Origin: Nocardioides sp. HDW12B
GTDB lineage: Bacteria > Actinomycetota > Actinomycetes > Propionibacteriales > Nocardioidaceae
NCBI RefSeq assembly: GCF_011299595.1
Contig: NZ_CP049867.1
Span: 4,030,001 to 4,094,000, forward strand
Length of the DNA: 64,000 bases
Direction: 5' to 3'
Shown: in pieces, positions 25,288-58,698 of the stretch
Numbering within the stretch: the first letter of the stretch is position 1
Layout: every line of letters begins with the position of its first letter
The notes under the pieces: model-generated
What the model was told of the DNA's origin: nothing
Databases searched by the model: none
The model's input: only the letters and a program-made list of their open reading frames with translations
Position numbers and translations under genes: made by a program

Positions 25288-25370
25288 GGCGACGCGTCTC
25301 GCGCCTGCGGGAGTGGCGCCTCGCGCCTGCGGGAGTGGCGTCTCGCGCCCGCGGACGTGGCGTCTCGCGG
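25288..25370. repeat. 22-bp repeat array, 3 units plus a partial
   Basis: Units at 25301-25322, 25323-25344 and 25345-25366 are nearly identical (GCGCCTGCGGGAGTGGCGTC then TC) and are preceded by a partial unit and followed by GCGGGG. The sequence is GC-richer than the other arrays but fits GCGC-N8-GTGRCGYYTC. It sits between the ABC permease and a convergent tRNA gene. Confidence 0.8.
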
Positions 25371-25377
25371 GGAGGGG

Positions 25378-25451
25378 TGGAGCGGATGACGGGAATCGAA
25401 CCCGCATTCTGAGCTTGGGAAGCTCATGTTCTGCCATTGAACTACATCCGC
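25378..25451 (-). tRNA. tRNA-Gly (CCC)
   Basis: 74 bases including an encoded CCA. On the minus strand the acceptor GCGGATG pairs with CATCCGC, the anticodon arm TGAGC-TTCCCAA-GCTCA gives anticodon CCC, and the T arm CGGG-TTCGATT-CCCG is standard. It decodes GGG. Confidence 0.95.
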
Positions 25452-30685: not shown

Positions 30686-30692
30686 CCCCCAC

Positions 30693-30836
30693 GAAACGTC
30701 GCTGGTGTACGCGCGAAGCGTCGCTCGTGTACGCGCGAAGCGTCGCTCGTGTACGACGGGAGGTCTCGGCGTACACACGTGACGCTTCGCGCGTACACAC
30801 ACGACGCTTCGTGCGTACACACGTGACGCTTCGCGG
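30693..30836. repeat. 22-bp repeat array, 3 units facing 3 inverted units
   Basis: Forward (reverse-orientation) units GAARCGTCGCT... at 30693-30714, 30715-30736 and 30737-30758 are followed by plus-orientation units at 30767-30788, 30789-30810 and 30811-30832, then GCGGG. All are exactly 22 bp. The facing halves can pair into a long hairpin. Located between convergent genes. Confidence 0.85.
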
Positions 30837-35584: not shown

Positions 35585-35606
35585 CCGTTTCCCGTCTCTT
35601 CTCCGC

Positions 35607-35770
35607 GAAGCGTCACGGGTGTACGCGCGAAGCGTCACGGGTGTACGCGCGAAGGGCCGCGGTCGTCACGGAGAGGCCTCCTGCGCGCGCACGAGTGACC
35701 TCTCGCGTGAACATGCCTGACGCTTCGCGCGAACACACGCGACGTCTCGCGCGTTCATTCGTGACGTTTC
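35607..35770. repeat. 22-bp repeat array, 2-3 units facing 4 inverted units
   Basis: Reverse-orientation units at 35607-35628 and 35629-35650 (GAAGCGTCACGGGTGTACGC then GC) plus a decayed one at 35651-35672; plus-orientation units at 35683-35704, 35705-35726, 35727-35748 and 35749-35770. Exact 22-bp period. This array fills most of the 297-bp gap between purQ and the 65-aa gene, the one array not flanked by convergent genes. Confidence 0.82.
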
Positions 35771-35825
35771 GCCGGGCTCGGTTGTGACGGTTCGCCTCGG
35801 GTCGGGGAGGTCACGCCGCGCGTGC

Positions 35826-48197: not shown

Positions 48198-48216
48198 CCC
48201 CCCACCCCACCCCCGC

Positions 48217-48522
48217 GAAACGTCACTCCTGTACGCGCGAAGCGTCACTCCTGTACGCGCGAAGCGTCGCTCCTGTACGCGCGAAGCGTCACTGGTGAAC
48301 GGGCGAGAGGGCGGTCATGTACGCCGTCAGACTGCGCCGGTGCCACAGCTCGGGTGGCGCTGGACCGCGCCAACGCGTACGGCCGCTCCGTGCGGTACAC
48401 GCGCGACGTCTCGCGCGTACACACGTGACCTTTCGCGCGTACAGGAGCAACGCTTCGCGCGTACACACGTGACCTTTCGCGCGTACAGGAGCGACGCTTC
48501 GCGCGTACACGGACGACGCTTC
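48217..48522. repeat. 22-bp repeat array, 4 units facing 6 inverted units
   Basis: The largest array and the whole content of the 346-bp gap 48198-48543. Reverse-orientation units at 48217-48238, 48239-48260, 48261-48282 and 48283-48304; an 86-bp centre (48305-48390); plus-orientation units at 48391-48412, 48413-48434, 48435-48456, 48457-48478, 48479-48500 and 48501-48522, then GCGGGG. Two unit types alternate on the right (CACACGTGACCTTTC and CAGGAGCRACGCTTC). Lies between convergent genes and marks the left edge of the sugar island. Confidence 0.88.
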
Positions 48523-48543
48523 GCGGGGGAAGTGAGGCGAGGG

Positions 48544-49944
48544 TCAGGGGGAGGTGAGGACGGAGCGGAGCTCGGGGAGGGTGGCGAGCTGGGTGTCGAG
48601 GATGCCGCGGGCGACGGTGACCGAGCCGACGAGCGGGTGCAGGGCCAGCGCCCGGGTCGCGGTGGCGCGGGAGCCGGACAGCGCTGCCTCGACGGTCGTG
48701 CGCTCGACCGCCTTCACGGTCGTCACCAGGCCGAGGGCGTGCGGGTCGAGCGGATCCACCGGGTGGGGGCGCCAGCCGCGCGCGTCGACCGAGCACGGCA
48801 CCTCGACGACCGCGTCGGCGTCGAGGCCGGGCAGCGTCCCCCGGTTCGGCACGTTCAGCACGAGCGTCGTCGCCTCGTCGCGCGCGATCGCGCGCATCAG
48901 CTGCAGCGCGACGCGGTCGTAGCCGCCGCCGTCGAGGTCCTCCTGGTCGCGCTCGCCGGACCCGGTCGCCTCCCGGCTCTCCGCCATGTACGTCGCCTCG
49001 CGCGCCATCCGCGCCCGCTCCCAGGCGTCGAACGCCTCGCCCGGTCCGAAACGCTCGCCGCCCGTACCGCCGCCCGGACCGCCGCCAGGACTGCCTGCCC
49101 CGGCCGCTCCCCAGAACTCCTGCTGCTGCTCGAGCAGCACCTCGCCGCGGGTGCGGCCGGCCTTCTGCTCGGCGGCCACCGCGTCGGTGCGGTAGTACCA
49201 GTACCAGAGGTACTCGTTGGGCACCGTGCCGAGCGTGGCCAGCCAGTCGGGGCCGAACAGCCGTCCCTCCTCGGTGCCCAGCAGAGCGGCGCGGTCGGCG
49301 AGCAGGCCGGGCAGCCGGTCGGTGCCGTCGACGACGACCCGGCGCAGCCAGCCGAGGTGGTTGAGCCCGGCGTAGTCGAAGGTGGCCGTCGCCGGGTCGA
49401 CCCCGAGCGCCCGGGCCACCCGCTTGAACATGCCGACGGGGGAGTCGCAGATCCCCACCACGCGGTCGCCCAGCACGCGTGACATCGCCTCGGTCACCAT
49501 GCCCGCCGGGTTGGTGAAGTTGATGACGTGGGCCTCGGGCGCCACCCGCCGCACCGTCTCGGCGACGTGCATCGCCACCGGGACCGTGCGCAGGCCGTAG
49601 GTGATGCCCCCGGCGCCGGTGGTCTCCTGCCCGAGCACCCCGAGGTCGAGGGCCGAGCGCTCGTCGCACACCCGTCCGGCGAGCCCGCCCACCCGGATGG
49701 CGGAGAAGACGAAGTCGGCCCCGCGCACCGCCGTCTCGAGGTCGGTCTCCAGGTGCACGCGAGGCCCGCCGCCGCCGTGGGCGGCGGTCGCGTCCTCCAG
49801 CACCCGACCGATGGTGCGCAAGCGTCCGGGGTCGAGGTCGTGCAGCACCAGGTCGGTGACCCGACCCGGACCCTCGTCGTGGAGCAGGGCGCGGTGGACC
49901 AGCGGCACGCGGAAGCCTCCGCCGCCCAGGATGGTCAGTCTCAT
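48544..49944 (-). CDS. GH4-family glycosidase (6-phospho-beta-glucosidase type)
   Basis: 466 aa NAD-dependent family 4 glycosidase. N-terminal NAD-binding ILGGGGFRVPLV; NFTNPAGMVTEAM; metal-site residues Cys166 in VGICDSPVG and His196 in LNHLGW, the Cys-His spacing typical of GH4. These enzymes use redox elimination at C3 and often act on 6-phosphorylated disaccharides; ChbF of the chitobiose pathway belongs here. The stretch around residues 285-300 is a Gly-rich insert (AGSPGGGPGGGTGG). It overlaps the DeoR gene by 4 bases (ATGA) in one operon. Confidence 0.88.
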   Translation of the reverse strand: MRLTILGGGGFRVPLVHRALLHDEGPGRVTDLVLHDLDPGRLRTIGRVLEDATAAHGGGGPRVHLETDLETAVRGADFVFSAIRVGGLAGRVCDERSALDLGVLGQETTGAGGITYGLRTVPVAMHVAETVRRVAPEAHVINFTNPAGMVTEAMSRVLGDRVVGICDSPVGMFKRVARALGVDPATATFDYAGLNHLGWLRRVVVDGTDRLPGLLADRAALLGTEEGRLFGPDWLATLGTVPNEYLWYWYYRTDAVAAEQKAGRTRGEVLLEQQQEFWGAAGAGSPGGGPGGGTGGERFGPGEAFDAWERARMAREATYMAESREATGSGERDQEDLDGGGYDRVALQLMRAIARDEATTLVLNVPNRGTLPGLDADAVVEVPCSVDARGWRPHPVDPLDPHALGLVTTVKAVERTTVEAALSGSRATATRALALHPLVGSVTVARGILDTQLATLPELRSVLTSP

Positions 49945-50708
49945 GCCGGTCCTTCCAGGCTCGTGATGATCTCGACGCCGGAGTCGGCCAGGCAGGCGAG
50001 GGTCTCGGGGTCCGAGCCGGGCTCGGTCACGACCGCGGCCAGGTCCGTGGGTCCGCAGACGCGTGCGATGCCGCGTCCGGGGAACTTGCTGGCGTCGGCG
50101 ACCAGCACGGTGCGCTCGGCCGCCTCGAGCATGGCCCGCTTGACCGGGACCTCGACGGCCGTGGTGTCGAGCACGCTGCCGTCGCGGCGCACACCGCTGG
50201 TGCCCAGGAACAGCACGTCGGCGTGCACCTGGCGGATCGCCTGCTCGGTGAGGAAGCCGACGAGCGAGCGGTAGTTGCGACGCACCACCCCGCCCAGCAC
50301 GATGAGCTCCACCGCCTCGTCCTCGGCGAGCTCCTCGTAGACCGGGAGGCTCGAGGTGATGACGGTGACCTCCCGCCCGCGCAGCGCCCGAGCGAGGTGC
50401 CGGGTGGTCGTGCCGATGTCGATGAGCAGCACGTCGCCGTCGCGCACCAGGCCGGCCGCGACGGTCGCGACGCGGTGCTTGGCGTCCTCGTGGTCGCCGG
50501 CGACCACGTCGAAGGGCGGCTCGGCGGTCCCCAGCGGAGCGGCCCCTCCGTGGACCCGGCGCAGCATGCCCTCGGACTCGAGGTAGGACAGGTCGCGCCG
50601 CACCGTGGCGCCGCTGACCCCGAGCTCGCGGGTCAGCTCGCCGACCTCGGCGGGCCCGCCCGTGCGGAGCCGCTCCAGGATGCGGTCGTGGCGACGCCGG
50701 GCGAGCAT
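49941..50708 (-). CDS. DeoR-family transcriptional regulator
   Basis: 255 aa. N-terminal winged helix RRRHDRILERLRTGGPAEVGELTREL, then GVSGATVRRDLSYLESEGMLRRVHGGA, followed by the DeoRC sensor with DGDVLLIDIGTTTRHLAR and SLPVYEEL. The sensor usually binds phosphorylated sugars. First gene of the minus-strand pair with the GH4 gene and divergent from the kinase-importer operon, so it probably controls both sides. A TACCGT box six bases before the ATG suggests a leaderless transcript. Confidence 0.92.
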   Translation of the reverse strand: MLARRRHDRILERLRTGGPAEVGELTRELGVSGATVRRDLSYLESEGMLRRVHGGAAPLGTAEPPFDVVAGDHEDAKHRVATVAAGLVRDGDVLLIDIGTTTRHLARALRGREVTVITSSLPVYEELAEDEAVELIVLGGVVRRNYRSLVGFLTEQAIRQVHADVLFLGTSGVRRDGSVLDTTAVEVPVKRAMLEAAERTVLVADASKFPGRGIARVCGPTDLAAVVTEPGSDPETLACLADSGVEIITSLEGPA

Positions 50709-50714
50709 GCGCTC

Positions 50715-50749
50715 ACGGTAGCAGCCAGAAGTGCGCAGAAGTGATCACT
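50715..50749. promoter_or_regulatory. deoR-gene promoter and candidate operator
   Basis: Minus-strand -10 TACCGT (complement of 50715-50720) sits six bases before the DeoR ATG. Behind it lie two direct repeats CAGAAGTG (50726-50733 and 50736-50743) spaced ten bases apart, running into the palindrome AGTGATCACT (50740-50749). Direct repeats one helical turn apart are a usual form for DeoR operators. Confidence 0.5.
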
Positions 50750-50864
50750 GGGCCGGGCTGCCGGCGGCACGAACGCCCCAGAGGTAACGATCTGGATTTT
50801 CGTGCGTGGGTCCTTGCGCACAAATGAGCACCTGGGCAACACTGCCGCGCAAGGAGGTGCGCCG

Positions 50865-52028
50865 ATGTCCGACCCCGACGGCCCCGACGGCCCTGTCGGT
50901 CCCGACACCTCCGCGCGCCCGCTGGACCTCGTCGTGACCGGCACCGTGTTCCTCGACCTCATCCTCACCGGACTGCGTGCGGCCCCGGTCGGCGGCCGCG
51001 AGATCATGGCCGACGGCATGGGCTCGAGCCCCGGCGGCGCGGCGACCCTCGCAGTGGCCGCGAGCCGGCTCGGCGTCGCCACCGGTCTCGTCGCCGCCTT
51101 CGGCTCCGACGTGTACGGCGACTTCTGCTGGTCGACGCTCGAGGAGGACGAAGGTGTCGACCTCTCGGCGTCGCGGCGCATCGAGGGCTGGCACTCCCCG
51201 GTCACGGTGTCCCTGGCCTACGACGACGACCGGGCGATGATCACCCACGCGCACGAGCCGCCGCTCGACCCCGACCTGCTCTTCGGCCGGGTGCCGCAGG
51301 CCCAGGTCTGCTTCGCCGACGTCGGGACCACCCGGGCGCCGTGGGTCGACGACGCCGTGGCGCGGGGCTCGCGGGTCTTCGCCGACGTCGGCTGGGACGA
51401 CACGGGGGCCTGGGACGCCGACGGCCTCCGGGAGCGCCTGAGCGGGTGCCACGCCTTCGTGCCCAACGCCGCGGAGGCGATGGCCTACACCGGCAAGGAC
51501 CACCCCGGCGCGGCGTTGGAGGTCATCCGTGACTGGGTGCCGCTGGCCGTGGTGACCGCCGGCAGCGGCGGCGCCTACGCGGCCGACGAGACCACCGGCG
51601 AGACCGTGTGGGTCCCCGGCCTGCGGGTGCCGGCCGTCGACCCGACCGGGGCCGGGGACGTCTTCCTGGCCGCCCTCATGGCCGGCACGCTGCGCGACTG
51701 GCCGTTGCTGCAGCGGATCCGCTTCGCCAACCTCGCCGCGGCGCTGTCGGTGCGCGACGTCGGCGGCGCGCTCGCCGCGCCGGGCTGGGGCGACGTGTGC
51801 GACTGGTTCACCGACCTCGACCCGACGAGCCGGCTGGCCCGCGACTACGGCTTCCTGGAGGAGGTCCTGGCCGGCGTGGAGCACCGGATGTTCGCCCGCG
51901 CCGTGCCCACCATCGGCTTCGACAGCGGCACCCACGACCACTCGCGCCACGGCCCCCGCCCGGCCCACCACAGCACCGCCCACCCCCTGTCCACCGCCAA
52001 GCCCGCCTCGCCCCAGGAGAACCCATGA
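50865..52028 (+). CDS. PfkB-family carbohydrate kinase
   Basis: 387 aa from ATG 50865, with AAGGAGG upstream; TTGCGC at 50814 may be the -35 box. Ribokinase fold: MADGMGSSPGGAATLAVAASRLG near the substrate site, and the catalytic DPTGAGDVFLAALMAG near residue 260. Likely phosphorylates the imported sugar, here plausibly glucosamine or a glucosaminide. The C-terminal 60 residues are rich in His and Pro (THDHSRHGPRPAHHS), beyond the usual 310-residue family length. Stop overlaps the next start (ATGA). Confidence 0.9.
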   Translation: MSDPDGPDGPVGPDTSARPLDLVVTGTVFLDLILTGLRAAPVGGREIMADGMGSSPGGAATLAVAASRLGVATGLVAAFGSDVYGDFCWSTLEEDEGVDLSASRRIEGWHSPVTVSLAYDDDRAMITHAHEPPLDPDLLFGRVPQAQVCFADVGTTRAPWVDDAVARGSRVFADVGWDDTGAWDADGLRERLSGCHAFVPNAAEAMAYTGKDHPGAALEVIRDWVPLAVVTAGSGGAYAADETTGETVWVPGLRVPAVDPTGAGDVFLAALMAGTLRDWPLLQRIRFANLAAALSVRDVGGALAAPGWGDVCDWFTDLDPTSRLARDYGFLEEVLAGVEHRMFARAVPTIGFDSGTHDHSRHGPRPAHHSTAHPLSTAKPASPQENP

Positions 52029-53404
52029 CCCGCACCCGTCGGAGCACCCAGCCCCACCTCCACCGCACCCTGGGGGCCGGTCTGGCCGCCGCAGCCCTGC
52101 TGGCCACGACCGTGGCCTGCGCCCCGGGCGAGGAGGGCGGCAGCGGCACCGAGACGAAGTCGGAGGACGTCACCACCGACATCAGCGAGCTCGGCGACGT
52201 GACGCTCACGGTCTGGGACCAGGAGGTCCGCGGCGGCCAGGCGGCCCAGATCGCGGCGCTCAACGAGGCGTTCACGGAGAAGTACCCCAACGTCACCATC
52301 GACCGCACCAAGAGGTCCTTCACCGACCTCCAGCGCACGCTGCGCAACGCCATCACCTCCGACGACGCCCCCGACGTGGTGCAGGCCAACAACGGCCGCA
52401 CCGACATGGGTGCCTTCGTCGAGAACGGCCTGCTGCAGTCCCTCGACGGCTACGCCGAGGCCTACGGCTGGACCGAGCGCTTCCCCGAGTCGGTGCGCTC
52501 GCTGGCCAGCTACACCGACGACGGCGCCACCTTCGGCGAGGGCAGCCTCTACGGCCTGGCCCAGGTCGGCGAGCTCGTCGGCGTCTTCTACAACAAGGCC
52601 AAGCTCACCGAGCTCGGGCTCGAGGTGCCGGAGACGACCGCCGACTTCGAGGCGGCCCTCGCCGCGGCCGCCGACGCCGACGAGCTGCCGATCCAGTTCG
52701 GCAACCTCGACGGCTGGCCGGGCATCCACGACTTCGGCTTCGTGCACAACCAGTTCGTGCCGCGCGACGACATCCGCAACCTGGGCTTCGGCCGCGAGGG
52801 CGCGAGCTGGACCTCGGAGGAGAACGTGCAGGCGGCCGAGACCTTCACCGAGTGGGTCGACGCCGGCTACTTCACCCCCGACTTCAACGGCGTCGGCTAC
52901 GACCCGGCGTGGCAGGACTTCGCGCAGGGCAACGGCGTCTTCCTGGTCGCGGGCACCTGGCTGCAGGCCGACCTCGACGAGGCGATGGGTGAGGACGTCG
53001 GCTTCGTGCTGCCCCCGGTCGGCGAGTCCGGCGAGCAGGCCGTGACCGGCGGCACCGGGCTGCCCTTCTCGATCACCGAGGCCTCGGACGACGCCGACGT
53101 CGCCGCGGCGTACATCGACTTCATCACCAGCGACGAGGCGATGCAGATGATCCAGGAGGCCGGCAACCTGCCGGTCGTCGGCGGCGACGCGGCCCAGGCC
53201 GAGGGCCTGGCCGCCGAGATCCTCGACGCCTGGACCACCGCGGGCGAGGACGACGCCATCGTGCCCTACCTCGACTACGCCACCCCGGACTTCTACGACC
53301 TCATCACCGCGCAGGTCCAGGAGCTCGGCGCCGGCTCGGTCGCTCCCGACGAGTTCCTCAGCACGCTCGAGGACGAGTACAGCTCCTTCGTCTCGGGCCA
53401 GTGA
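52025..53404 (+). CDS. ABC sugar transporter, extracellular binding lipoprotein
   Basis: 459 aa. Signal peptide with a lipobox-like LATTVAC, so anchored by lipid at the outer face. Family 1 solute-binding fold: DVTLTVWDQEVRGGQAAQIAALNEAF, YPNVTIDRTKR, DVVQANNGR, YGLAQVGELVGVFYNKA and FSITEASDDADVAAAYIDF. It captures an oligosaccharide or glycoside for the two following permeases. Overlaps its neighbours by 4 bases on both sides. No ATPase gene is present; a shared MsiK-like ATPase elsewhere is likely. Confidence 0.92.
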   Translation: MTRTRRSTQPHLHRTLGAGLAAAALLATTVACAPGEEGGSGTETKSEDVTTDISELGDVTLTVWDQEVRGGQAAQIAALNEAFTEKYPNVTIDRTKRSFTDLQRTLRNAITSDDAPDVVQANNGRTDMGAFVENGLLQSLDGYAEAYGWTERFPESVRSLASYTDDGATFGEGSLYGLAQVGELVGVFYNKAKLTELGLEVPETTADFEAALAAAADADELPIQFGNLDGWPGIHDFGFVHNQFVPRDDIRNLGFGREGASWTSEENVQAAETFTEWVDAGYFTPDFNGVGYDPAWQDFAQGNGVFLVAGTWLQADLDEAMGEDVGFVLPPVGESGEQAVTGGTGLPFSITEASDDADVAAAYIDFITSDEAMQMIQEAGNLPVVGGDAAQAEGLAAEILDAWTTAGEDDAIVPYLDYATPDFYDLITAQVQELGAGSVAPDEFLSTLEDEYSSFVSGQ

Positions 53405-54297
53405 CGCGCCGCCGGGGGAGCCGCGCGCCGGGAGAGCCGCGCCTGGTCGCCTACGCGTACGTCGCGCCGGCGCTGCTGGTCTTCGGCCTCTTCCTGCTCG
53501 CCCCCCTGGCGTACGCCGTGCAGCTGTCGTTCTTCGAGTGGGACGGCCTGGGGCTCGGCACCTGGGTCGGCCTGGACAACTACGTCGCGGTCCTGACCGA
53601 CCCCGAGCTGCGGGCGCCGTTCCTGCACGCCCTCGTGCTCGTCGTCTTCTTCAGCCTCGTGCCGGTGACGCTCGGGCTGGTGCTGGCGGCGCTCATGACC
53701 CGCTCGCGGGTGCGGGGCGCCGGCTTCTTCCGCACCGTGATCTTCCTGCCCCAGGTGGTCGCCCTCACGGTGGTGGCCGTCGTGTGGCGCCAGATCTACG
53801 CCCCCACCGGGCCGTTGAACGACGCGCTGCGGCTCGTCGGCCTCGACGGCTTCGCCCGCGGCTGGCTCGGCGACGCCGACTGGGTGCTGGTCGCGATCGG
53901 CCTGGTCGGCACCTGGGTCGGCACGGGCCTGTGCACGGTGCTGTTCCTGGCCGGGCTCGCCAAGGTCGGCCGCGAGCTCTACGAGGCGGCGCGTCTCGAC
54001 GGCGCCGGCTTCTGGACCGAGCTGCGCTCGATCAGCCTGCCGGCGGTGCGCGGGGAGCTGGCGGTGGCGCTGACCCTGACCATGGTGGCGGCGCTGCGCA
54101 CCTTCGACCTCGTCTACGTCATGACGGCCGGCGGCCCGGGCAACGCCAGCCGGGTGCCGTCCTACGAGGTCTACGACCGGGCCATCCAGGAGGGCGACGT
54201 CGGCACCGGCATCACGGTCGCCCTCGTCCTCACCGCCCTCATCCTGCTGGCCACCTGGCTGGTCAACCGCATCGCCGGGGACGGTGAGCCCGCGTGA
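53401..54297 (+). CDS. ABC sugar transporter permease (MalF type)
   Basis: 298 aa; GTG 53401 overlaps the binding-protein stop. Six membrane helices; the EAA loop for ATPase contact reads YEAARLDGAGFWTELRSISLP. Opens with a short Arg/Gly-rich cytosolic segment. Pairs with the next permease to form the import channel. Confidence 0.92.
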   Translation: MTRRRGSRAPGEPRLVAYAYVAPALLVFGLFLLAPLAYAVQLSFFEWDGLGLGTWVGLDNYVAVLTDPELRAPFLHALVLVVFFSLVPVTLGLVLAALMTRSRVRGAGFFRTVIFLPQVVALTVVAVVWRQIYAPTGPLNDALRLVGLDGFARGWLGDADWVLVAIGLVGTWVGTGLCTVLFLAGLAKVGRELYEAARLDGAGFWTELRSISLPAVRGELAVALTLTMVAALRTFDLVYVMTAGGPGNASRVPSYEVYDRAIQEGDVGTGITVALVLTALILLATWLVNRIAGDGEPA

Positions 54298-55103
54298 GGA
54301 CGTCGAGCCTCGAGCGCACCACGACGTACGCCGTGCTGGTGCTGGCCGCCCTGTTCGCGCTCTACCCGATCGGCCTGATCCTGGTGAAGGCCGTGCAGCC
54401 CGACGCCATCGGCGCCGACGTCGGGGTCGACCTGGGCAACTTCGCCGAGGCGTGGGACGAGGGCCAGTTCGGCAGCTACCTGCGCACCAGCGTGATCGTC
54501 ACGGTGTGCGTCGTGCTGGGCGCCACGCTGCTGTCGTCGCTGGCCGGCTACGCCTTCGGCACGATGCAGTTCCGCGGCTCCTCGGTGCTGTTCTACCTGC
54601 TGCTGCTCGGGCTCATGGTGCCGAGCGAGGCGGTCGTCATCCCGCTCTACTTCCAGCTCCGCAGCGTCGACCTGCTGGACACCTACACCGCGCTGGTGCT
54701 GCCGCAGATCGCGCAGTCGCTGGCCTTCGGCACCTTCTGGATGCGCGCCTACTTCCGCAGCACCTCGCGCGAGGTGGTCGAGGCCGCCCGGCTCGACGGT
54801 GCCGGTCACCTGCGGATCTTCTGGTCGATCCTGCTGCCGATGGGCCGCCCCGCCGTCACCACGATGATGGTGCTGTTCTTCATGTGGACGTGGAACGAGT
54901 TCCTGCTCCCGCTGGTCGTCATCCCCAGCGGCGACCTGCTCACCGCGCCCCTCGGTCTCGCCCTGTTCCAGGGCCAGTACACCGCCGGCACGTCCCTGCT
55001 CGCCGCCGGTGCCGTCATGGTCGCCTTCCCGGTCGTCGTCTTCTACCTGTTCGCGCAGCGTCACTTCATCCGCGGCATGGTCGACGGCGCCACGAAGGGC
55101 TGA
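54294..55103 (+). CDS. ABC sugar transporter permease (MalG type)
   Basis: 269 aa; GTG 54294 overlaps the previous stop. Six helices with EAA loop VEAARLDGAGHLRIFWSILLP and the C-terminal QRHFIRGMVDGATKG that ends most MalG-type subunits. Followed by a 39-bp gap with GGAGAAC before the deacetylase gene, so the operon continues. Confidence 0.93.
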   Translation: MRTSSLERTTTYAVLVLAALFALYPIGLILVKAVQPDAIGADVGVDLGNFAEAWDEGQFGSYLRTSVIVTVCVVLGATLLSSLAGYAFGTMQFRGSSVLFYLLLLGLMVPSEAVVIPLYFQLRSVDLLDTYTALVLPQIAQSLAFGTFWMRAYFRSTSREVVEAARLDGAGHLRIFWSILLPMGRPAVTTMMVLFFMWTWNEFLLPLVVIPSGDLLTAPLGLALFQGQYTAGTSLLAAGAVMVAFPVVVFYLFAQRHFIRGMVDGATKG

Positions 55104-55142
55104 CCCTCCTGCCCCACCACCGCCCCACCGAAGGAGAACCTC

Positions 55143-57950
55143 GTGCCCCGTCCCCGACGCACCTCCACCCCGGCCCTCGGCACCACGCTCGCCGCGGCGC
55201 TGAGCGCGGCCCTCGGCCTCTCGCTGCTGCCCGCCGCGCTCTCCGGCGCCGAGGCGGCCACCCCCGAGGGCGCCACCGTGCGCGAGCGGCCCGACCCGGC
55301 CGACCTCGACGTCCTCTACGTCGGTGCCCACCCCGACGACGAGGCCTCGCGGCTGTCGATGTTCGGCGAGTGGCGTGAGCGGTACGGCGCCGAGACCGGC
55401 GTGGTCACGGTGACCCGCGGCGAGGGCGGCGGCAACGCGATCGGGCCCGAGGAGGGCCCGGCCCTGGGGCTGATCCGTGAGCGCGAGGAGCGCAAGGCCG
55501 TCGGCACCCTCGACGTGAGCGACGTCTACAACCTCGACAAGGTCGACTTCTACTACTCGGTCAGCGCCCCGCTGCACCAGGAGGCCTGGAACGCCCGCGA
55601 GACCCTCGGCCGGCTCGTGCGCGTCGTGCGCGAGACCCGTCCCGAGATCGTCATGACGATGAACCCCGCCCCGAGCCCCGGCAACCACGGCGGCCACCAG
55701 GAGGCGGCACTGCTGGCCATCGAGGCCTACGAGGCGGCGGCCGACCGGGACCGCTACCGGGGCCAGATCACCCGCGAGGGCCTGCGGCCCTGGGCCGCGT
55801 CGAAGCTGCTGACCACCGCCGTCGCCGGCACCGCCGGTGCCTCCGGCTCGGCGTGCCCCACGCAGTACACCCCCGCCGACCCCACCGACGACATCTACGG
55901 CGTCTGGTCCGGGCGTGCGTCGGAGAGCGGTGAGACCTACGCGCAGCTCGAGCGCCGGGCGCAGCGCGTCTACGCGTCGCAGGGCTGGTCCGGCTTCCCG
56001 GACGTCAGCGCCGACCCCGCCCGCCTCGGGTGCGACTTCGTCCGCCAGATCGACGCCCGCGTGCCGTTCCTGCGCGGTGACCTGAGCGCCGAGGCGGCTG
56101 ACTCGTCCACGATCCTCGAGGGTGCGGTGCTGCCCACCGTCGGCGGTCTGCCGCTCGGCACCGGCCTCGACGTCTCGACCGAGCAGGTCGAGGTCGTCCC
56201 GGGCGGCTCCACGACCCTCGACGTGGCCCTCACCGCCCCCCGCGACCGCGACCTGCGGCGGGTGGCGGTCGCCCTCGACGTACCGGACGGCTGGAGCGCC
56301 CCCGAGCCCGCGACCATCGGCACGGTCCGTGCCGGGCGCACGGTGCGCGAGTCCTTCACGGTGACCGCCCCGGCCGCGGCCGAGGTGGACCGGGTGCTCG
56401 TCGGGGTCGACGTCGACTCCCGTCAGGGCACCGGCTTCGGCGACCAGCAGCTCGACGTCGTGCCGGCCGTGCAGGGCGTGCAGGAGCCGCTGCCGCAGGT
56501 GGCGCAGTTCGACGCCTGGACCGAGCGGGTCGGGGTCGAGCAGCTCCGGGGCATCGTCAAGCCCGTCCTCACGCTCCCGTCGGGCGGCACCCGCACCGTC
56601 GGGGTCGACGTGACCAACCGCGGTGACGCGCCGGCCTCGGGCGAGGTCGAGCTGGACCTGCCCGACGGTTTCAGCGTGCCCGGCGCGGCGACGTACACCG
56701 GGCTGGCTCCGGGTGCGACCGAGCGGGTCGAGCTCGAGGTCACCAACGACGACACCAGCCTGCCGACCGCCAACCAGGGCGGCACCAACGGCGACTACGA
56801 CTACACGGTCCGCACCACGAGCGGCACCGGCAGCTCGACGTCCGCGGCCGCCCTGGAGCTGGTGCCGACGGCGACGGTCCCCGACGCCGCGGCGCCGACC
56901 CTCGACGGCACGGTGGAGGAGGGCGAGTACGCCGCCGAGATCGACCTGAGCCGGAAGTGGGAGGGCAGCGACTGCACCGACGCGGCCGACTGCTCCGCCA
57001 CGGGATGGGTGGCCCGCTCGGGCGACGCGCTCTACGTCGCGGCCGAGGTCACCGACGACACCCTCGGCACGAAGCTCGCGCCGAGCGACTGCAAGCGGCA
57101 CTGGCGGGTCGACTCCCTCGAGCTGGCGATCGACCCGACCGGCACCTCGGAGAACACGTCGACGACCTTCAAGGCCGCTGTCCTGCCCACCACCACCGGG
57201 GGAGTGGCGTGCGCGTCGCGAGACGCGGACAACAAGCAGGGACCGATCGGCACCTTCGAGCAGGTCGGCGGGGGCGGCACCCCCGCCCGCGCCGCCGACG
57301 ACACGGCACCCGGGTTCGAGGCGGTCTCGAAGCTCAACGAGCCCTACACCGGCTACGTGATCGAGGCCAGGATCCCCTTCAGCGACCTGCCCGCCACGGT
57401 GGACCCCGAGCGCATGGGGTTCAACGCGTTCGTCTACGACTCCGACACCCAGGACCGGACCGGCCAGACCCGGCTGGGGTGGTCGACCTTCGGCGGGGTC
57501 CAGGGCGACCCCTACCGCTGGGGCCGGGTGGTCCTCGAGGGCGACGCGCCGCCGGCGGTGGCGACCAGCGAGCCGCGGCTGGACTTCCCGGCACTGAGCA
57601 GCCTGGAGTCGCCGCCCTCGATCACCCAGGCGGTGCGGACCCGCGTCGCGCTCTCCGGCCTGCCGCAGACCCCGCGGCGGGACAGCGCGGAGGTGGTCCG
57701 GGCGGTGCCGCGCGACGGCGCGGTCACGGCCGTGGTGGAGTCCCGCGGACGCGGCACGGCGCACCTCTTCGCGATGTACGGCGACGAGGTCGTGGGGCAG
57801 CGCGTCGTGCGTGTCCGGCCCGGCACCTCACGGATCACGGTCCCGACCGAGGGCAACCCCGGCTGGCGGGTGCTGATGGCGTTCGACTCCGACGGGGTGG
57901 GGAGCGCCTCGTCGGCGGCCGCGGTCCCGGTCGCGCGCCGCACCCGGTGA
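55143..57950 (+). CDS. secreted multidomain PIG-L deacetylase with CBM9-like module
   Basis: 935 aa. Signal peptide about 1-38. PIG-L zinc deacetylase domain (about 53-300): GAHPDDEAS at 61-69 carries zinc ligands and the catalytic Asp, and GNHGGHQEAALLA supplies the next His. Two NEW3-like beta domains follow (about 345-420 and 475-540), then a CBM9-like sugar-binding domain (about 583-800: TLDGTVEEGEYAAEIDLS, DALYVAAEVTDDTL, VIEARIPFSDLP), and a C-terminal strand-rich tail. PIG-L enzymes remove N-acetyl from GlcNAc groups. Secretion plus CBM9 implies action on an extracellular glycan or glycoside before import. The nagB gene follows 7 bases later. Confidence 0.88.
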   Translation: MPRPRRTSTPALGTTLAAALSAALGLSLLPAALSGAEAATPEGATVRERPDPADLDVLYVGAHPDDEASRLSMFGEWRERYGAETGVVTVTRGEGGGNAIGPEEGPALGLIREREERKAVGTLDVSDVYNLDKVDFYYSVSAPLHQEAWNARETLGRLVRVVRETRPEIVMTMNPAPSPGNHGGHQEAALLAIEAYEAAADRDRYRGQITREGLRPWAASKLLTTAVAGTAGASGSACPTQYTPADPTDDIYGVWSGRASESGETYAQLERRAQRVYASQGWSGFPDVSADPARLGCDFVRQIDARVPFLRGDLSAEAADSSTILEGAVLPTVGGLPLGTGLDVSTEQVEVVPGGSTTLDVALTAPRDRDLRRVAVALDVPDGWSAPEPATIGTVRAGRTVRESFTVTAPAAAEVDRVLVGVDVDSRQGTGFGDQQLDVVPAVQGVQEPLPQVAQFDAWTERVGVEQLRGIVKPVLTLPSGGTRTVGVDVTNRGDAPASGEVELDLPDGFSVPGAATYTGLAPGATERVELEVTNDDTSLPTANQGGTNGDYDYTVRTTSGTGSSTSAAALELVPTATVPDAAAPTLDGTVEEGEYAAEIDLSRKWEGSDCTDAADCSATGWVARSGDALYVAAEVTDDTLGTKLAPSDCKRHWRVDSLELAIDPTGTSENTSTTFKAAVLPTTTGGVACASRDADNKQGPIGTFEQVGGGGTPARAADDTAPGFEAVSKLNEPYTGYVIEARIPFSDLPATVDPERMGFNAFVYDSDTQDRTGQTRLGWSTFGGVQGDPYRWGRVVLEGDAPPAVATSEPRLDFPALSSLESPPSITQAVRTRVALSGLPQTPRRDSAEVVRAVPRDGAVTAVVESRGRGTAHLFAMYGDEVVGQRVVRVRPGTSRITVPTEGNPGWRVLMAFDSDGVGSASSAAAVPVARRTR

Positions 57951-57957
57951 GCCGTCC

Positions 57958-58698
57958 GTGCCCGTGCTGAGGGTGCTGCCCGACGCCGGTGCGGTCGCCC
58001 GCGCGGCGGCGGACCTCGTGGTCGCGGCCGTCCGCGCGGGCAGCACCTCCCTCGGCGTCGCGACCGGCTCCTCCCCGCAGGGCACGTACGCCGAGCTGGC
58101 GCGCCGCGTCGCGACGGGCCGGCTGTCCCTCGCGGGCTGCCGGGCCTACCTGCTCGACGAGTACGTCGGACTCCCGCCGGAGCACCCCCAGACCTACCGC
58201 CGGGTGATCCGACGGGAGCTGGTCGACCGCACCGACCTGGACCCGGAGGACGTGCACGGGCCCGACGGCGGTGCGGCCGACCTCGCGCAGGAGGCGGCCC
58301 GCTACGAGGAGGAGGTGAGCGCGGCGTCGATCGGCGTGCAGCTGCTGGGGATCGGCTCCAACGGCCACATCGGGTTCAACGAGCCCGGCTCGCCGCTGGA
58401 CGCCGTGACCCGCGTCGTCGAGCTCACCGAGCGCACCCGCAGCGACAACGCCCGCTTCTTCGCCTCGGGCGACGAGGTGCCGCGCCACGTCCTCACCCAG
58501 GGACCGGCGACGATCCTGCGTGCCGAACGGCTGGTGCTGCTCGCGATCGGGGAGCGCAAGGCCGACGCGCTGGCCGCGGCCCTCACCGGACCGGTCACGC
58601 CGGACTGCCCGGCGTCGGTGCTCCAGCGCCACCCGGACGTGCACGTGCTCGCCGACCGCACGGCCGCGGCGGGGCTGCCGGTTTCACTGGGTACCTAG
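57958..58698 (+). CDS. nagB: glucosamine-6-phosphate deaminase
   Basis: 246 aa from GTG 57958. Converts glucosamine-6-phosphate to fructose-6-phosphate and ammonia. Family motifs: LGVATGSSPQGTY (phosphate loop), LLDEYVGLPPEHPQTYR, and LGIGSNGHIGFNEPGSP with the catalytic residues. No nagA accompanies it, consistent with deacetylation by the upstream secreted enzyme. The last residues and TAG stop lie inside a 90-bp palindromic element, so the element has supplied part of the coding end (PVSLGT). Confidence 0.93.
   Translation: MPVLRVLPDAGAVARAAADLVVAAVRAGSTSLGVATGSSPQGTYAELARRVATGRLSLAGCRAYLLDEYVGLPPEHPQTYRRVIRRELVDRTDLDPEDVHGPDGGAADLAQEAARYEEEVSAASIGVQLLGIGSNGHIGFNEPGSPLDAVTRVVELTERTRSDNARFFASGDEVPRHVLTQGPATILRAERLVLLAIGERKADALAAALTGPVTPDCPASVLQRHPDVHVLADRTAAAGLPVSLGT

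Follow-up and report, generated by a model that had tools for sequence, protein, structure and literature searches.

In the chb system of E. coli, the substrate enters through a PTS permease (EIIABC; ChbBCA), is deacetylated by ChbG and is cleaved as a phosphorylated disaccharide by the GH4 enzyme ChbF, with NagA and NagB downstream. In the same glycosidase family, GlvA of Bacillus subtilis and AglB of Klebsiella follow PTS import. The archaeal chitobiose pathway of Thermococcus and Pyrococcus has chitinases and the exo-glucosaminidase GlmA (PMC9779004). The LmbE-like/PIG-L superfamily is recognized by an HxDD motif and a distal histidine with a spacer of 97-148 residues, and all the members characterised by the time of that survey act on N-acetyl- or N-acylglucosamine cores, the mycothiol enzymes MshB and Mca acting on GlcNAc- or N-acylglucosaminyl-inositol (PMC4101496).

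Here we describe a locus of Nocardioides sp. HDW12B that combines a GH4 enzyme with a PIG-L deacetylase, a sugar kinase and an ABC importer. It lies in a stretch of 64,000 nucleotides (the window), positions 4030001-4094000 of the complete 4.19-Mb chromosome of this actinobacterium (NZ_CP049867.1). A good interpretation of this real, conserved operon is an amino-sugar pathway, and we put at about one half the probability that the operon is dedicated to scavenging of a GlcNAc-containing glycoside, most likely an alpha-linked one. Gene content, conservation, operators, catalytic motifs and absences are read from sequence, and from these we infer every reaction, its order, the linkage and the substrate. 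No earlier description of the operon as a unit was found in the open literature searched, outside which most subscription journals lie.

Organization and regulation of the locus

All eight genes listed in the first-pass annotation are found by open reading frames and profile matches, with the order, strands and families that it gave. The minus strand carries a predicted NAD/metal-dependent 6-phospho-glycosidase of family GH4 (48544..49944; PF02056, 131 bits; PF11975, 161 bits), belonging to a CD[ST]P subfamily, and a DeoR-family repressor (49941..50708) that is AgaR-like in that its closest curated model is AgaR, with a score below the cut-off of that model. As also noted in that annotation, these two genes diverge from a row of plus-strand genes, an arrangement borne out by the frame and family calls. 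The row comprises a PfkB-family sugar kinase (50865..52028; PF00294, 100 bits; GAGD motif), an ABC sugar-binding protein that is probably a lipoprotein (52025..53404; PF13416/PF01547, 98 bits), ABC permeases 1 (53401..54297) and 2 (54294..55103), both matching PF00528, a PIG-L (LmbE-like) deacetylase with a signal peptide, a NEW3 domain and a CBM9-like domain (55143..57950; PF02585, PF10633 and PF06452 at 72, 50 and 83 bits), and the glucosamine-6-phosphate deaminase NagB (57958..58698). Downstream of NagB lie purF and then purM.

The start of PfkB is placed at ATG 50865 rather than at the mechanically called GTG 50802, because AAGGAGG (50851-50857) precedes that ATG by seven bases. From PfkB to permease 2 the genes overlap, and gaps of 39 and 7 bp separate PIG-L from permease 2 and NagB from PIG-L, respectively. 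Since all junctions overlap or are 7-39 bp apart, a single transcription unit from PfkB to NagB is likely.

The gap between DeoR and PfkB contains two copies of TGCGCAnAAnTGAnCAC. A motif, TGCGCGAAnnTGAnTG, was found de novo in 55 homologous DeoR-PfkB gaps. This motif and a genome-wide scan support two putative operators on the plus strand, TGCGCAGAAGTGATCAC (50732..50748) and TGCGCACAAATGAGCAC (50815..50831). With at most one mismatch allowed, the scan of the 4.19-Mb genome gives two matches, both in this gap, against none for a reversed control, and thus adds no further regulon member at that stringency in the whole genome. DeoR presumably binds the two putative operators and would repress the operon through them.

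The window also contains arrays of a 22-nt unit (about CGTACACnnGnGACGCTTCGCG) at 30692-30835, 35604-35654, 48214-48293 and 48395-48525, with 16 strict copies, which sit in intergenic gaps and often form two halves in opposite orientation. They were not seen in the related loci of other genomes. Two more tandem arrays with a 22-nt period are built from other units (25294-25369 and 35695-35772), and the former adjoins a tRNA-Gly gene (25378-25451).

Conservation among Actinobacteria

Of 246 genomes in the order, 101 match the GH4 protein at 1e-60, and genome contigs were searched with this protein as well; of 395 genomes in the class, 31 match the PIG-L protein at 1e-50. A simple gene caller and BLAST were used to establish the neighbourhoods. 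The full set of GH4, PfkB, binding protein, two permeases and PIG-L is present in 25 of the 30 loci with a called PIG-L gene, over several actinobacterial families, although these loci are not a random sample because they were picked via GH4 or PIG-L matches. The five exceptions are PIG-L paralogues located elsewhere (loci L146, L152 and L153), a contig edge (L157) and a kinase missed by the caller (L038). In the loci of these paralogues (L152:8338-18966, with L146 and L153), the PIG-L/NEW3/CBM9-type protein stands beside a ROK/NagC-like regulator, an aminoethylphosphonate-type ABC importer and a lyase.

Pairwise protein distances over 24 loci correlate with r of 0.77-0.94 (GH4-PfkB, 0.94; GH4-PIG-L, 0.82), a level reached in none of 2000 Mantel-type permutations, although common species history contributes to it. 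Judged by these comparisons, the gene block is kept far beyond chance and is a real conserved unit. The widespread divergent core consists of GH4 and PfkB, usually with DeoR, and no gene accompanies PfkB more constantly than GH4. In locus L144, the usual GH4 is replaced inside the operon by a distant one (32% identity), which again has Asp after Cys (CDQW); this replacement indicates that a cleavage step is needed.

These data bear on a simpler route, in which glucosamine, freed outside the cell by PIG-L and other secreted enzymes, enters through the ABC system and is phosphorylated by PfkB acting as a glucosamine kinase, with GH4 used for a side substrate. A kinase followed by NagB would make such a route complete, and CsnEFG-type ABC import of glucosamine and a glucosamine kinase not of the PfkB type have been described in Actinobacteria (PMC6520443). 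The constancy of GH4 beside PfkB, the close correlation of the two and the substitution in L144 argue against an accessory role of the glycosidase, and we regard free glucosamine as an unlikely substrate.

Some GH4 cores differ in their surroundings. At L057:9255-14441, and also at L060, L064 and L083, the core (mostly with DeoR and PfkB) is followed by a GH38 alpha-mannosidase, the binding protein being a different one, and these loci might represent the same core adapted to another glycoside. Some GH4-PfkB cores lack PIG-L and stand beside GH38 or with another binding protein, so the core is not bound to amino sugars. No consistent extra partner hinting at the substrate was found in the flanks of the homologous loci.

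The glycosidase and the linkage of its substrate

GH4 matches both the Glyco_hydro_4 and the 4C domains above cut-off and has the Cys-His metal site, of which C166 and H196 are invariant. Its AlphaFold model (pLDDT 91.6) adopts the GH4 fold, and among solved structures it comes closest to phospho-specific GH4 enzymes, with the AglA/LplD types further off, which suggests that the substrate is phosphorylated.

The Asp in the CD.P motif of GH4 enzymes is thought to act as an acid for alpha leaving groups. The window enzyme has CDSP, GLNHLGW and PNEYL, and C-D-[ST]-P is present in all 116 called members of its subfamily. The 6-phospho-alpha-glucosidases GlvA and AglB have CDMP, GLNHFGW and PNTYL, while the phospho-beta enzymes ChbF, Geobacillus 1s6y and Thermotoga maritima BglT have CNIP or CNVP and GLNHMVF or a similar sequence. 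This assignment is drawn from the sequences themselves, as the open literature searched gave no motif rule for GH4. GlvA prefers the alpha and BglT the beta anomer, and both accept the other one with good leaving groups (PMC10628242). On the other hand, the whole-protein and fold scores place the enzyme a little closer to the phospho-beta group (5c3m, 287 bits) than to GlvA (255 bits), so that the linkage is read from a few active-site residues compared with those of five characterised enzymes. From this signature, the window enzyme is probably of the alpha type.

The first-pass annotation had taken the locus for an ABC-based counterpart of chb, in which chitobiose or another beta-GlcNAc oligosaccharide would be deacetylated outside by PIG-L, imported by the ABC system, phosphorylated by PfkB and cut at the beta-1,4 linkage by a GH4 like ChbF. 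Besides the whole-protein scores, this proposal draws on the binding protein, whose best relatives in the PDB are the chitin-oligosaccharide binding proteins 7ehp and 7eho, and on archaeal Dac, a PIG-L enzyme that uses chitobiose (PMC4101496; PMC9779004). Given the latter, the idea would not be wholly new. It conflicts with the alpha-type signature, CDSP here and CD[ST]P in 116/116 relatives against CNIP in ChbF, and with the deacetylase, which is of a family other than ChbG. Moreover, GH18, GH19 and GH20 are absent from the window genome and from five genomes of the same family with the operon; G002 and G031, two 8-Mb genomes of the same order that carry a related operon, do contain GH18, and chitobiose could be supplied by other organisms. 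Collectively, a beta-linked chitin fragment is an unlikely substrate, and the chitobiose parallel should give way to an alpha-linked GlcNAc glycoside.

Deacetylation, import and phosphorylation

The PIG-L protein was proposed to be secreted, and this is supported as far as the N-terminal signal sequence MPRPRRTSTPALGTTLAAALSAALGLSLLPAALSGAEA, read by eye, can indicate. Its metal motif comprises H63-P-D65-D66 and HGGH at 182-185, with a spacing from the former to H182/H185 of about 115-119 residues, within the LmbE-like range, and 29 of 30 called homologues share the motif. With its CBM9-like and NEW3 domains, the enzyme may act on a substrate that is bound or polymeric.

The binding protein and two permease genes, together with two ORFs for MalK-type ATPases elsewhere in the genome, support the proposed ABC import. 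Shared ATPases serve ABC importers in Streptomyces, and those found here could serve the permeases of this operon. The binding protein scores 67 bits against the NgcE model, where 400 are needed. Its weak likeness to chitin-oligosaccharide and NgcE-type binders is consistent with an amino sugar without being specific for one; a beta-linked substrate would give the same likeness, which counts against the alpha linkage. For PfkB, no curated equivalog was reached in the profile search. Since GH4 is of the phospho type, PfkB presumably acts on the intact glycoside, and the suggestion that it phosphorylates ahead of GH4 cleavage is counted as supported.

The product and its deamination

NagB scores 278 bits to NF001684, below the cut-off of 326, and has the motifs LDEY and NGHIGFNEPG; its best PDB relative is the B. 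subtilis deaminase 2bkv. It is the only NagB of the genome, and the only other PF01182 match, a high-scoring one, is taken to be a 6-phosphogluconolactonase. Galactosamine was considered as a substrate because the regulator is AgaR-like and the NagB families include AgaI, and was rejected on the 105 bits of NagB to galactosamine-6-phosphate isomerase against the score of the glucosamine enzyme.

NagB stands in the operon of the window and of L031, L034 and L157. In L032 and L033, the slot next to PIG-L holds a SIS-domain protein that fits NagB-II best among curated models (NagB-II, 191 bits; GlmS, 184 bits; below cut-off). The use of two unrelated deaminase families at one position suggests that the product is GlcN-6-P. 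Catabolism of fructoselysine or other Amadori compounds by PfkB and a SIS deglycase was discounted, since what replaces the SIS protein in other loci is NagB. The profile, the PDB relatives and the NagB-II-like protein support the proposal that NagB drains GlcN-6-P.

No match to NagA (TIGR00221) is found in the window genome (G000), against matches in all 14 other genomes searched. Its absence, which had been taken as a sign of full deacetylation outside the cell, thus holds for the whole genome of the window organism and is not general, as related genomes with the same operon carry nagA. A strong GlcNAc-type PTS permease is also absent from the window genome, where the best EIIC match has no more than 76 bits, compared with 239-249 bits for several relatives. 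With no NagA, other NagB or strong PTS permease, the window organism shows no amino-sugar entry besides this operon, whereas the operon is an addition to other amino-sugar routes in G188 and G198, which have NagA, another NagB and a strong PTS permease, and in G194, which has NagA and a strong PTS permease.

A deaminase (NagB or NagB-II) next to PIG-L is confined to the family of the window, and most homologous loci outside it have none adjacent. This distribution, with the PIG-L-less cores beside GH38, would also fit a glycoside other than an amino sugar, with PIG-L removing an N-acyl group from the aglycone or another compound and NagB added in one branch only. Such a function of the set is improbable given that two unrelated deaminase families occupy one slot and that NagB has no other known role in a genome without NagA.

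A proposed pathway

For an alpha-linked GlcNAc glycoside, the following route is proposed. Exported PIG-L would remove the N-acetyl or another N-acyl group, perhaps while held near the substrate by its CBM9-like domain. The lipoprotein would bind the resulting glucosaminyl glycoside for import through the two permeases, which would rely on a shared MalK-type ATPase whose gene lies elsewhere. PfkB would use ATP to phosphorylate the still intact glycoside at its 6-hydroxyl, and GH4 would cleave it, most likely at an alpha linkage, by NAD-dependent oxidation and elimination into GlcN-6-P and the aglycone. NagB would then convert GlcN-6-P into Fru-6-P and ammonia.

Possible substrates include mycothiol-type glucosaminyl-inositol, trehalosamine, and aminoglycoside-like or heparosan fragments. 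In the case of mycothiol and its relatives, PIG-L would de-acylate extracellular mycothiol, its S-conjugates or GlcNAc-inositol, and the glucosaminyl-alpha-inositol would be imported, phosphorylated and split by GH4 into GlcN-6-P and inositol. This is unlikely; if true, it would provide actinobacteria with a route to consume each other's redox thiol. The operon is a conserved multi-gene unit, in several actinobacterial families, that would yield GlcN-6-P without NagA, a PTS or the known glucosamine kinase, an ATP-dependent kinase and a phospho-GH4 standing in for PTS phosphorylation. It also offers a ready test of whether the active-site signature of GH4 predicts linkage.

Comparison with known systems

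The proposed route shares with E. coli chb deacetylation, a phosphorylated disaccharide, GH4 cleavage and the passage of GlcN-6-P to NagB. It differs in having ABC and kinase genes and no strong GlcNAc-type EIIC where chb has EIIABC, a PIG-L protein with a signal peptide in place of a ChbG-family deacetylase, and NagB without NagA. ChbF (CNIP/GLNHMVF) and the window enzyme (CDSP/GLNHLGW) are 31% identical. As in the archaeal Dac-GlmA pathway, a PIG-L deacetylase would act before the glycosidase, but here the glycosidase is a GH4 paired with a kinase, the deacetylase carries a signal peptide, and the genome is free of GH18, GH19 and GH20. MshB and Mca are of the same superfamily as the window PIG-L, which their models match at 37.5 bits each, far below the cut-offs, and they are not known to have a signal peptide, NEW3 or CBM9. 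GlvA and AglB share the CD.P, GLNH.GW and PN.YL motifs with the window GH4 at about 31% identity, and the operon described here is distinguished from them by its PfkB kinase.
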